Assembly (NCBI GenBank): GCA_021432605.1
Contig: MU271144.1
Coordinates: 3,282,606 to 3,346,605 of the forward strand
Length of the DNA: 64,000 nt
DNA from: Coniochaeta sp. PMI_546
Taxonomy: Eukaryota > Ascomycota > Sordariomycetes > Coniochaetales > Coniochaetaceae
Direction: 5' to 3'
The notes below the pieces were generated by a model. The model made no database searches. It had not been told where the DNA came from and saw only the letters and a list, made by a program, of their open reading frames with translations. Of this stretch, positions 56,080 to 63,691 are shown one piece after another. Positions within the stretch are counted from its first letter, which is position 1, and the number at the start of each line of letters is the position of its first letter. The position numbers were made by a program, and so were the translations under genes.

Positions 56080-56577
56080 TGGGACCCAAAACAGGTGTTG
56101 AACTCGCACATGCGGTCGGAAACGAAAACTAAACATGATGAAGGCACCACAGTCCAACTGGCGAGTCCTCCCACCACTTCAGAAGCCATAATTCCTGGGT
56201 CCGTTCGGGTGAACAAGATGGATACGAGTGTTGGCCTGCAACATGGTTGGACAGTATCTTGTGAAAGCATGAAGCACATGTAAGGATGCGAAATTCCTAG
56301 GTGCGCCTGTCGAGATGACCCTGCTCAAATTGACAGTGCGTCGAATGGATATTCGTCTTGTGGGATTTTTGTTGACTTTTCAAGCTTCTCACAGCGACGC
56401 TGTGCGTCTGCCACTGACCTTGTGCATGGGGTGTTGGGAGGAGATACCTTAGACACCTAAGGCACGTACGTGGTAGTTGGGTTCATCAACCGGAAGGAGC
56501 ACCAGCCAATTGAAGTGCGGTGGGCCCCACTCCGAACCTGGCCCCGCTTCCACAAGGTCAAGAAGTCAAATAACGGA
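56080..56577. other. Intergenic region upstream of U6
   Basis: About 500 bases between the transporter stop and the U6 RNA 5-prime end. I see no clear Pol III TATA box 25-30 bases before the likely U6 start, in line with promoter elements inside the gene. Confidence 0.4.
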
Positions 56578-56579
56578 TT

Positions 56580-56805
56580 GTTCCTTCGCCTTCGGGCATT
56601 TGGTCTTTTATAACGTAAGCATCACTTTCAAGAGGTCGTTTGTTCGAATCCCACTAACAGCCACCATAGGATACAGAGAAGATTAGCATGGCCCCTGGTA
56701 TGTTGACTGCGCACTGCAATCTCAACAAATGCATGTACTGCATGTACTGACTGTTAAACAGCACTAAGGATGACACGCTCAATCAAAGAGAAGCTACCAA
56801 TTTTT
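56580..56805 (+). ncRNA. U6 spliceosomal RNA interrupted by two introns
   Basis: Catalytic RNA of the spliceosome, normally made by RNA polymerase III. Exon 1 (about 56580-56614) holds the 5-prime hairpin (GCC-TTCG-GGC) and CATTTGGTC. Exon 2 (56670-56697) holds GATACAGAGAAGATTAGC with the invariant ACAGAGA and AGC triad, then ATGGCCCCTG. Exon 3 (56762 to about 56805) holds CACTAAGGATGACACGC, the U4/U2-pairing region and the AGAAGCTACCAA tail before a T run. Intron 1 (56615-56669, 55 nt) has GTAAGC, branch CTAAC and CCATAG. Intron 2 (56698-56761, 64 nt) has GTATGT, branch CTGAC and AAACAG. Removing both leaves about 105 nt, the normal U6 size. U6 introns are known in Schizosaccharomyces and Rhodosporidium. 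The segment between TTTGGTC and GATACAG (TTTTATAAC) is unusual, so the exact 5-prime edge of intron 1 is slightly uncertain. Confidence 0.88.
56642..56652 (+). promoter_or_regulatory. B-box-like Pol III promoter inside U6 intron 1
   Basis: GTTCGAATCCC matches the tRNA B-box consensus (GGTTCGANTCC) at all but the first G, where T stands before GTTCGAATCC. It lies wholly in intron 1. U6 A-box-like sequence (TTAGCATGGCCCC) lies in exon 2, downstream of it, so the order is inverted relative to tRNA genes. Fission yeast U6 is known to keep its B box in the intron. Confidence 0.65.
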
Positions 56806-56809
56806 TTTT
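56801..56809 (+). terminator. Pol III terminator of U6
   Basis: Nine consecutive T residues directly after the conserved U6 3-prime tail, followed by more T-rich sequence; a strong polymerase III stop. Confidence 0.8.
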
Positions 56810-60920: not shown

Positions 60921-60968
60921 AATATACATATTTAACAAGCTGGCACCAAGTGCTCCAGGTAGCAATAT
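60921..60968 (+). repeat. 45-bp dispersed repeat, copy A
   Basis: AATATACATATTTAACAAGC followed by TGG...TGCTCC...GGTAGCAATAT. Copy B at 62528-62575 has the same blocks in the same order, with small gaps and substitutions. Copy A directly abuts the U6-like sequence at 60971. Confidence 0.55.
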
Positions 60969-60970
60969 TA

Positions 60971-61074
60971 TAGCATGGCCCCTGGTTAGTTTCTCTGATC
61001 CTCTGTAGAGGCATGTTTTAACAGCTTGATAGCACTAAGATGACACGCTCAATCAAAGAGAAGCTACCAATTTT
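60971..61074 (+). pseudogene. Truncated U6 copy that keeps an intron-like insert
   Basis: Begins TAGCATGGCCCCTG (as U6 exon 2), continues with a 48-nt insert (60985-61032; GTTAGT to GATAG) at exactly the site of U6 intron 2, then CACTAAGATGACACGC and the AGAAGCTACCAA tail before TTTTATTTT. The ACAGAGA box, the 5-prime hairpin and intron 1 are missing, and one G is lost in AAGGATG. The insert is unlike the intron at 56698-56761 apart from its ends. Keeping an insert argues for DNA-level duplication, not reverse transcription of mature U6. Lack of ACAGAGA means it cannot act as U6. Confidence 0.8.
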
Positions 61075-62527
61075 ATTTTGGGATTTTTTTCTTCTTCTTC
61101 CATTCGGGTTATCACATCCCCTTAACAGCTACCTACGGCTTCTTTGGCAGTCTCTGATTCAGCGATTCAGCGATATCGTTGCTAGCACTTGGCTGCGATT
61201 CACGGGGCAATGCATTCTCTGGGCGATAGCCTCGTGGCACTGGAACCCAAGTCCTGTTTTACGAGCCGGTAATACGCGCTTCTCCATGACTTGCTAGGTC
61301 GTAAGTATGGCCAGTGATGCTGCGTTTGCAGCCGACTTGATCAATCTAGGACAGCGTGTCGCTCTCCGGACGGCTTGCAGTGACAGGAGCTGGAACCCCT
61401 GTTGTCGGTGTGAGTATGTAGAGCCTGTGTGTCGCTAAAACCGTCCGCACGAGGTTTGGCTTCGACAACCAGCAAGAACCTTTGTGTACATACCGTTGAT
61501 CTGATCGCAGACGTGGTGCTCTTCAATGTCATCTGTATGCAGTGGACAGTCCCGAACGCCTTAAGGATCCAACCGGGGGTGAAGCCGGGATTGATGCTCG
61601 ACACTCTGTTCGAGTCATACCCCGACCTCTCGAGAATCTGGAGCGTAAATTGTCCCGCGAGTCTTATTGGACAGGCTGCTCCCGGACGAATGCACACCGA
61701 GGGGCTCCCGTGGGCAAAGTAGCACCATCCTAAATAGTCTCCCCCATCGGAAGTCGCAGACGACATTGGCGTTTGACATTGACATGATGTTGGAAGACGG
61801 ACGGGGTGGCTGTTGACCGAAAGAGACACCTGGCACTGTCAACGTGGTGGCGTCTTCACGCAAGCCATCACCGTTTGGGAGGCGCGCAGAACCACTATAT
61901 TGAGCCGTCCCTAGGACGGTAATGCTTTGGGGCACATGTGCTCTCCAGGGGAGACGCACGGCCCAGAGCATCGCCCACAGCCAACTCCTCATTGAGGGTG
62001 CCAAGTGAGACTGAGGCCCCGTCACCGGGACTTCTATTCAGAAGGGGCTTCTCGACTACCTCTTCAGGTAGTCCTGAGTCCACCCGCCGCTCATCCGTAC
62101 CCATCTACACTCGCCCACGGCCTTCCCATCCCCGTATGGCTTACAAGAGAGGTCGCACCCCCTGCCATAGCTGCCGACGATGCTGCTCCTATCATAATTT
62201 GGCGGGCTCTGACAGTTGCAACCACTATGTACTATTCTAAGCTCAAACCGTGCAGGACGCGCATCTTATCGGGCCGCCACGGCCTGGATGACTTGTGGAC
62301 TCTCAGCTAGAAGCGGTCCTTCTACTACTGTCCTTGGTCTTGCACTTTTGCCTTCGCTGGAAGGTGAGTGTCTGCCACCCATATGCATCTGCTTTGCTCG
62401 CTGGAAGTCCAGCATCGCCCTTGCTGGGGTCTGAGAGTCGGAGAGGGGCAACGAGGACAAAGGCTCACGTTGTGCAGCTGACTGGAAAGTAGATACACGG
62501 TGTACCATATATACGAGAGGACGACGT

Positions 62528-62773: not shown

Positions 62774-63691
62774 TTAAGTGGACTGGTAGTGAGCGACATA
62801 GCCGACCTCCATCATGCTACCGTAGCCGTCCTGGGTGCTGCCATCTGGGTATCCGGGCTGTGTTATGCGGTTAGCGAGGAGAACTATGATACTCAAAAGG
62901 GGAGAGAGGCAACTCACCCAGCTGCCACCGACAGCCACGTTGAGGATGAAGTATTCGGCGCTGTGAGCCAGGGAGTTCCAGACGTTCTGGTTACCAATAC
63001 GGCTGCCAGTGATCTGGTGGAACTGTTTGCCGTCCATGTACCAGGTGATGCTCTCGCTCTGCCAGCTCGAGGGAGTGCGGTCCCAGACGATGCGCCAGGT
63101 GTGCCAGCTCTGGTCCGGGATGGCAATGCTGCTGCCGATGCCATTGCCCTCGTTGCAGATACCGCCGGGATACACGTCGCAGTGGACGGTACCGTAGCCG
63201 GTCAGCTGACCGTTGATGGTCTCGAGCACGTCGAGCTCGCCGCAGGAGGGCCAGCTGCCGCCGTGTCGGAGCACGTCGCCCAGCAGCCAGAAGGCGGGCC
63301 AGATGCCCTTCTTGTTGTTGACCGAGTTGGTGCCGAAGCGGATCTGCGACTCGCCCATGGTCCGCTTTCCGGCAGCGGGGGTAAAGGTATACTTGGACTC
63401 GAGGCGGCCGGATGTCCAGCCTCCGGAGACAGAGCTGTCGCGCCAGGGCACGAGCTGGAGCGTACCGCCGCCGCTGTTCTGCACATTCTTGGTTGAGGAA
63501 GTGTAAGTCTCTAGCTCGGCATTGACGCCCAAGTTGCCGGTGATGATGTTCCACTGGCTCGTGTCCGGCAGGGTGCCGGATCCCCCAGGGAATGTGGACT
63601 GCCACACCCGGTTGTATCCCGAGTACTGGGGAGCGTCCCAAGCAAAGGCCACAGAGGCGAAGAGAGAAATGAGTGAGGCGTGAGTACGCAT
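62774..63691 (-). CDS. Secreted GH16 beta-glucanase
   Basis: Predicted extracellular glycosidase on beta-1,3 or mixed beta-1,3/1,4-glucans. Two exons (63691-62918, 62857-62774) give 285 residues. The signal peptide is MRTHASLISLFASVAFA. The GH16 catalytic motif ExDxxE is present as ELDVLE (near residues 150-155), with IWPAFWLLG before it and HTWRIVWDR and ITWYMDGKQFH after it; the C-terminus GGSWPGYPDGSTQDGY is typical. An in-frame ATG 69 bases upstream (63760) would bury the signal peptide, so 63691 was chosen. The 60-nt intron is a multiple of three with no stop, so its retention would insert 20 residues after GGSW. TATATATA lies about 35 bases upstream. Confidence 0.93.
   Translation of the reverse strand: MRTHASLISLFASVAFAWDAPQYSGYNRVWQSTFPGGSGTLPDTSQWNIITGNLGVNAELETYTSSTKNVQNSGGGTLQLVPWRDSSVSGGWTSGRLESKYTFTPAAGKRTMGESQIRFGTNSVNNKKGIWPAFWLLGDVLRHGGSWPSCGELDVLETINGQLTGYGTVHCDVYPGGICNEGNGIGSSIAIPDQSWHTWRIVWDRTPSSWQSESITWYMDGKQFHQITGSRIGNQNVWNSLAHSAEYFILNVAVGGSWVSCLSPLLSIIVLLANRITQPGYPDGSTQDGYGSMMEVGYVAHYQST

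Follow-up and report, generated by a model that had tools for sequence, protein, structure and literature searches.

A U6 snRNA gene split by two spliceosomal-type introns in a Coniochaeta genome with introns in U2, U3 and initiator tRNA-Met genes

A U6 snRNA gene split by two GT-AG introns lies at positions 56580-56809 of the window, i.e. the whole analysed stretch of 64,000 nucleotides, which is part of contig C2 (handles of this form denote the contigs of the 33.5 Mb genome, 24 in number). With a probability of roughly 0.85, we regard this gene as the main U6 of this Sordariomycete, transcribed by RNA polymerase III (Pol III) via an upstream element and a B box in intron 1, relieved of both introns by splicing, and one of a set with U2, U3 and initiator tRNA genes. 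All statements on splicing and polymerase use are inferred from DNA.

The split U6 gene and its junctions

The gene consists of the following parts:
56580..56614, plus strand: U6 exon 1, with a GCC-UUCG-GGC 5' hairpin and ATTTGGTC, ending in ATAAC
56615..56669, plus strand: U6 intron 1, 55 nt, GTAAGC...CACTAAC...TAG
56670..56697, plus strand: U6 exon 2, GATACAGAGAAGATTAGCATGGCCCCTG, with the ACAGAGA box, the AGC triad and the 5' side of the internal stem-loop, from the Rfam U6 alignment
56698..56761, plus strand: U6 intron 2, 64 nt, GTATGT...TACTGAC...CAG
56762..about 56804, plus strand: U6 exon 3, CACTAAGGATGACACGC..., with the 3' side of the internal stem-loop, the U2-pairing CAAAGAGA and the 3' tail, from the Rfam U6 alignment
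56801..56809, plus strand: T9 run, predicted Pol III terminator

The ACAGAGA box, the AGC triad, the internal stem-loop stretch and the 3' tail follow each other in order, and the true 5' end of exon 1 is uncertain by several bases (about 56580-56588). For the assignment of junctions, every possible GT-AG intron of 40 nt or more within 56581-56805 was considered, and the unspliced sequence together with all one- and two-intron splicings (421 alternatives) was aligned to an independent uninterrupted U6 from JAIYDP010000129.1 (L021). The intron pair 56615-56669 and 56698-56761 ranked first with a score of 90.8, followed by a runner-up at 85.3; the best single intron reached 80.4 and the unspliced gene 49.8. 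Both introns carry the donor, branch site and acceptor of spliceosomal GT-AG introns, and their removal restores the exons exactly. The order of landmarks, the Rfam alignments of the pieces and the best restored U6 bear out the initial annotation, which had described a U6 gene with two ordinary spliceosomal introns adjoining the catalytic core. It had also suggested a covariance search with the Rfam U6 model; on the unspliced locus this gave no match at gathering (44 bits), and two sub-threshold RF00026 pieces of 27.9 and 23.0 bits, as expected because the gene is split.

The contig that supplied the yardstick is filed under a Verrucomicrobiaceae MAG and is probably eukaryotic contamination. 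In pattern scans for relatives it was the single match among prokaryotic genome contigs, and none was found in viral contigs.

In length and branch-to-acceptor distance, the U6 introns resemble the intron of a protein-coding GH16 gene in the window (GTGAGT...GCTAAC...CAG, 60 nt, branch A 13 nt from the 3' end), which was placed by comparison with the best protein match. This match to the GH16 protein at 62774-63691 is from Coniochaeta ligniaria (86% identity), in agreement with the ascomycete origin assumed in the initial annotation. A similar layout of donor, branch site and acceptor is shared by the nine further introns of the genome that were inspected, namely two in U2, one in U3, five in initiator tRNA and one in a protein-coding gene. 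Spread of intron 1 as a repeat was considered and rejected, as its 27-base core is without a second copy within three mismatches.

Computed pairing of the spliced U6 with the single U4 match in the genome (108.1 bits) yielded -9.2 kcal/mol for stem I and -24.2 kcal/mol for the stem II region, in which U6 is one base longer than U4 expects; for helix II with the U2 5' end, -13.3 kcal/mol was obtained.

U6 of Rhodosporidium has multiple introns, and that of Schizosaccharomyces pombe has one, compared to two here. The S. pombe gene shares its pre-mRNA-type intron and its ascomycete origin with the window gene, although it comes from a different class of Ascomycota (intron: Tani and Ohshima, 1989, reference entry). 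The supposition that a two-intron ascomycete U6 is rare or undescribed did not hold, as fungal U6 genes with one or several introns have been reported (Canzler, Stadler and Hertel, 2016, as cited in PMC5832005, PMC7827515 and PMC9518982), with intron(s) in U6 as the likeness to the present gene. Moreover, a table entry in PMC9518982 lists a 'U6 snRNA promoter with 1st intron' of Trichoderma reesei (Bodie, 2021); going by that entry, the promoter of this U6, likewise from a Sordariomycete, is used with the first intron included.

Promoter elements of U6 and of genes sharing them

Two candidate promoter elements were located at the U6 gene:
56560..56575, plus strand: upstream element AAGAAGTCAAATAACG, probable Pol III upstream promoter element
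56642..56651, plus strand: B box GTTCGAATCC, perfect match, inside intron 1 just 5' of the branch site

The sequence GTTCGAATCC, which we take to be the Pol III B box, occurs once in the window, both strands included (128 kb of strand sequence). For exon 1, inspection by eye gave no good match to the A-box consensus. With both a B box and a T-run terminator, the locus has two of the features of a Pol III gene with an internal promoter, in line with the Pol III-type gene of the initial annotation, and we think that U6 is of Pol III type in this genome. Because the B box in intron 1 is perfect, this intron probably doubles as promoter; a B box is also said to lie inside the S. pombe U6 intron, in work by Frendewey from 1990. 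Pol III would be recruited by the upstream element and the B box, and the transcript would end at the T9 run. Removal of both introns by the spliceosome would then leave a canonical U6 of about 106 nt, predicted to pair with the U4 and U2 of the genome. Since intron 1 carries the internal promoter element, it could not just be dropped in evolution, and this would account for its retention.

The upstream pattern AAGAAGTNAAATAACG, a 16-mer, has three exact matches among those listed in 33.5 Mb, which belong to U6, U5 and an unnamed B-box gene on C4. In each case GTTCGANTC lies no more than 120 nt downstream of the element, at a distance of 66 nt (U6), 119 nt (U5) and 92 nt (C4 gene), and a run of at least six T follows as well. 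Allowing one mismatch, five places were found: L025 lies upstream of an initiator tRNA gene, and L027 precedes a gene with GGTTCAATTCC (by eye) and T9-T10 runs, the B boxes of both being variants read by eye, neither of which fits the B-box pattern used; at L026, L028 and L029, neither a B box nor a T6 run was found within 700 nt. At up to two mismatches, the 93 matches are hardly above the 73 obtained with the reversed pattern as control, so that meaning is limited to the exact and some of the one-mismatch copies.

The C4 gene (L023, C4:523485, plus strand) appears as a Pol III-like gene with U6-type upstream element, B box and T-runs, and so does L027 (C12:339037, plus strand), with one mismatch in the upstream element, a B box by eye and T-runs. 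Searches with Rfam and ARAGORN gave no match for either gene itself.

The only U5 gene found (L020/L024, C11:336513-336655, minus strand, 61.6 bits) carries the upstream 16-mer of U6 type together with GTTCGATTC and T-runs, an arrangement suggestive of transcription by Pol III. It lacks the Pol II-type snRNA element treated below, as well as the 3' hairpin (judged by eye from sequences and folds). From the upstream element, the B box and the T-runs, we think that U5, unexpectedly, is of Pol III type; a narrow search of open-licence papers found no relevant title on Pol III transcription of a fungal U5. A second U5 gene was sought and rejected: the loop pattern at one mismatch gave four places, none with a Sm-like site within 110 nt, compared to eight for the control.

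Further U6 and U2 genes

A genome search with RF00026 at E <= 10 returned six places: the two pieces of the window gene, two further U6 copies, and two weak matches on C1 and C9 (15.6 and 14.9 bits) that were taken as chance. The further copies are:
C3:77062-77161, minus strand: divergent, intronless, full-length U6 paralogue (L003), 63.1 bits with RF00026, above the 44-bit cut-off
60955..61075 of the window, plus strand: degenerate partial second U6 copy, 4.3 kb downstream of the window U6, 19.0 bits

In the C3 copy, ACAGAGA, AGC and the bulged U are retained, along with a 5' hairpin of its own (GCCA-GCAA-UGGC) and a T9 run. Compared to the window U6, it is identical in 37 of 41 core columns and in 38 of 60 columns elsewhere (not counting end gaps; p 0.0025, Fisher test), a bias towards the core that speaks for selection. 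Its exon contains the B-box core TTCGATTC (TTCGANTC is present in 0.5% of shuffles). These features would also fit the C3 gene being the working U6 and the window gene a relic or minor source, which we nevertheless judge improbable: the C3 RNA pairs more weakly with U4 (stem II -19.5 vs -24.2) and with the main U2 (-9.5 vs -13.3; all computed), the upstream 16-mer was not found at the C3 gene, also at two mismatches, and the canonical core belongs to the window U6. With a 25-base exon-2 pattern at up to three mismatches, the genome matches only at the window gene (none) and at the C3 copy (two). The claim that the fungus needs the spliceosome for its own U6 is thus qualified by the existence of a divergent intronless gene, although the latter pairs less well with U4 and the main U2; of the proposed refutation, an intact intronless U6 that supplies all U6, the first half has turned up at C3.

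In the degenerate window copy, a disrupted exon 2 remnant with an ACAGAGA box broken by insertions extends up to 60984, followed by a 48-nt intron-like insert (60985-61032) and an exon-3-like stretch (61033-61075) nearly identical to exon 3, with one base missing. The insert is no more like intron 2 than shuffles are (252 of 500 score as high); without the extra stem II base, the copy pairs slightly better with U4 (-26.4 kcal/mol). Candidate remnants of exon 1 and exon 2 upstream of this copy were rejected, with 33 and 164 of 200 shuffles, respectively, scoring as high. Such a degenerate copy 4.3 kb away might suggest that the window U6 locus is itself a pseudogene that is never spliced. We hold this to be very unlikely, given that no departure from U6 invariants was seen, the junctions are exact, and B box, upstream element and terminator are all present.

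For U2, the genome search with RF00004 gave five matches, corresponding to four genes:
C6:181631-181887, minus strand: canonical U2 (L012) with pre-mRNA-type intron
C3:2677559-2677813, plus strand: canonical U2 (L013) with pre-mRNA-type intron
C1:1616595-1616901, minus strand: third U2 (L015), interrupted and diverged, with snRNA-type promoter
C7:1661007-1661210, plus strand: divergent intronless U2 (L014), 66.1 bits

The two canonical genes score 126.7 and 126.3 bits. Their introns of 65 or 63 nt each follow CTTAAAAG, in the same place and with differing intron sequence. The C1 gene was matched by RF00004 as two pieces, and as one match of 56.4 bits in a smaller search; by eye, its insert lacks an AG end at the junction that would restore U2. 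The C7 gene has a snRNA-type upstream element and a TATA at the usual distance, and its RNA an extra 5' hairpin and stems IIa/IIb rebuilt from different bases, with the branch-pairing stretch unchanged.

The Pol II-type snRNA promoter was searched as GCRCRGNCCA-N9..20-TATAWAW, which gave 11 places in the genome vs 2 in the control. Six of these lie at U1 (three genes), U3 and the U2 copies on C1 (diverged) and C7 (divergent); the remainder comprises one RNA on C5 and four places without assignment. At U4 and both canonical U2 genes, the snRNA element is present as such or with one base changed, and the spacing or the TATA falls outside the pattern. By eye, a 3' hairpin follows U1, U2, the C7 U2, U4 and the C5 RNA, but not U5. 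The C5 locus (L047, C5:2121219, plus strand) is a short RNA gene with snRNA-type upstream element, TATA, a Sm-like AATTTTTG and a snRNA-type 3' hairpin, for which Rfam gave no match at E 0.05.

The presence of the divergent intronless C7 U2 beside intron-bearing U2 genes also leaves some room, though less than an even chance by far, for both U6 genes being at work, which is compatible with the window gene as main U6: the intronless copy would provide a splicing-free baseline and the two-intron gene most U6, with the C7 gene playing the same part for U2. Against this, helix II between the divergent U6 and the divergent U2 (-9.2) is no better than with the main partners (-9.5, -8.9), and helix Ia looks weakened in both divergent RNAs (by eye). 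A private second spliceosome formed by these two RNAs was rejected for the lack of better mutual pairing.

Introns in initiator tRNA-Met and U3 genes

The first initiator tRNA-Met gene, reached via a one-mismatch match of the upstream promoter element, is split between positions 26 and 27. The genome was searched with a pattern for the 3' half, allowing up to three mismatches, which gave five places, all exact:
C1:1313620-1313651, minus strand: initiator tRNA-Met gene, 3'-half match (L059)
C2:374129-374160, plus strand: initiator tRNA-Met gene, 3'-half match (L060)
C2:2601500-2601531, minus strand: initiator tRNA-Met gene, 3'-half match (L061)
C3:2399583-2399614, plus strand: initiator tRNA-Met gene, 3'-half match (L062)
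C6:1202117-1202148, plus strand: initiator tRNA-Met gene, 3'-half match (L063)

In all five genes found, an intron of 56-60 nt separates positions 26 and 27, with a GTAAGT donor, a branch-like ACTGAC (four genes) or ACTAAT (one gene) and a YAG acceptor; the canonical position of tRNA introns cut by the endonuclease, 37/38 in the anticodon loop, is not used in any of them. The exons of 25 and 47 nt are identical in all five, and when joined form a 72-nt cloverleaf. Similarity of the intron interior places L059, L061 and L062 in one group and L060 and L063 in a second; for comparisons across the groups, an equally high score is reached by 12 to 273 of 300 shuffles. An uninterrupted copy was not found within the three-mismatch pattern search of the genome. 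The Rfam tRNA model remains below gathering at all five genes, so that ordinary annotation may miss them. Rfam or ARAGORN did, by contrast, recognise three other tRNA genes encountered incidentally, one of which has an insertion in the anticodon-loop region. A narrow search of open-licence papers found no description of spliceosomal introns in initiator tRNA.

The analysis also came upon one U3 gene (128.8 bits), in which a 95-nt intron near the 5' end was placed by eye. Rhodotorula hasegawae, which belongs to another phylum, offers a precedent for the introns of the two canonical U2 genes. A reference entry in PMC2586383 names an mRNA-type intron in its U2 (Takahashi, 1993), and according to PMC5832005, frequent interruption by an intron was, among small structured RNAs, known to date for U3 and U6 alone.

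Given the pre-mRNA-type introns in both canonical U2 genes, a U3 gene and five initiator tRNA-Met genes, several small structured RNAs of this fungus, among them Pol III transcripts, are probably substrates of the spliceosome. The initial annotation had mentioned neither these interrupted genes, nor the B box in intron 1 of U6, nor the degenerate U6 copy in the window. The wider proposition, that it routinely matures Pol III transcripts, namely U6 and every initiator tRNA-Met, besides U2 and U3, with the intronless U6 and U2 paralogues as possible backups and U5 on a U6-type Pol III promoter, we consider slightly favoured over its negation.

The U6 gene itself is of a kind already reported in fungi; what deserves follow-up is the pattern across the genome, with the introns of the initiator tRNA genes foremost. 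The probable promoter element inside the U6 intron illustrates how an intron of this sort can become locked in, and the loop in which the spliceosome needs itself becomes testable in a fungus of a culturable genus. Should the wider proposition be true, the spliceosome would be required for its own assembly as well as for translation initiation. If the introns of the initiator tRNA genes are removed by the spliceosome, a tRNA would be spliced by the mRNA machinery, splicing capacity would be tied directly to protein synthesis, and the way in which Pol III transcripts get to the spliceosome could be studied in this system.
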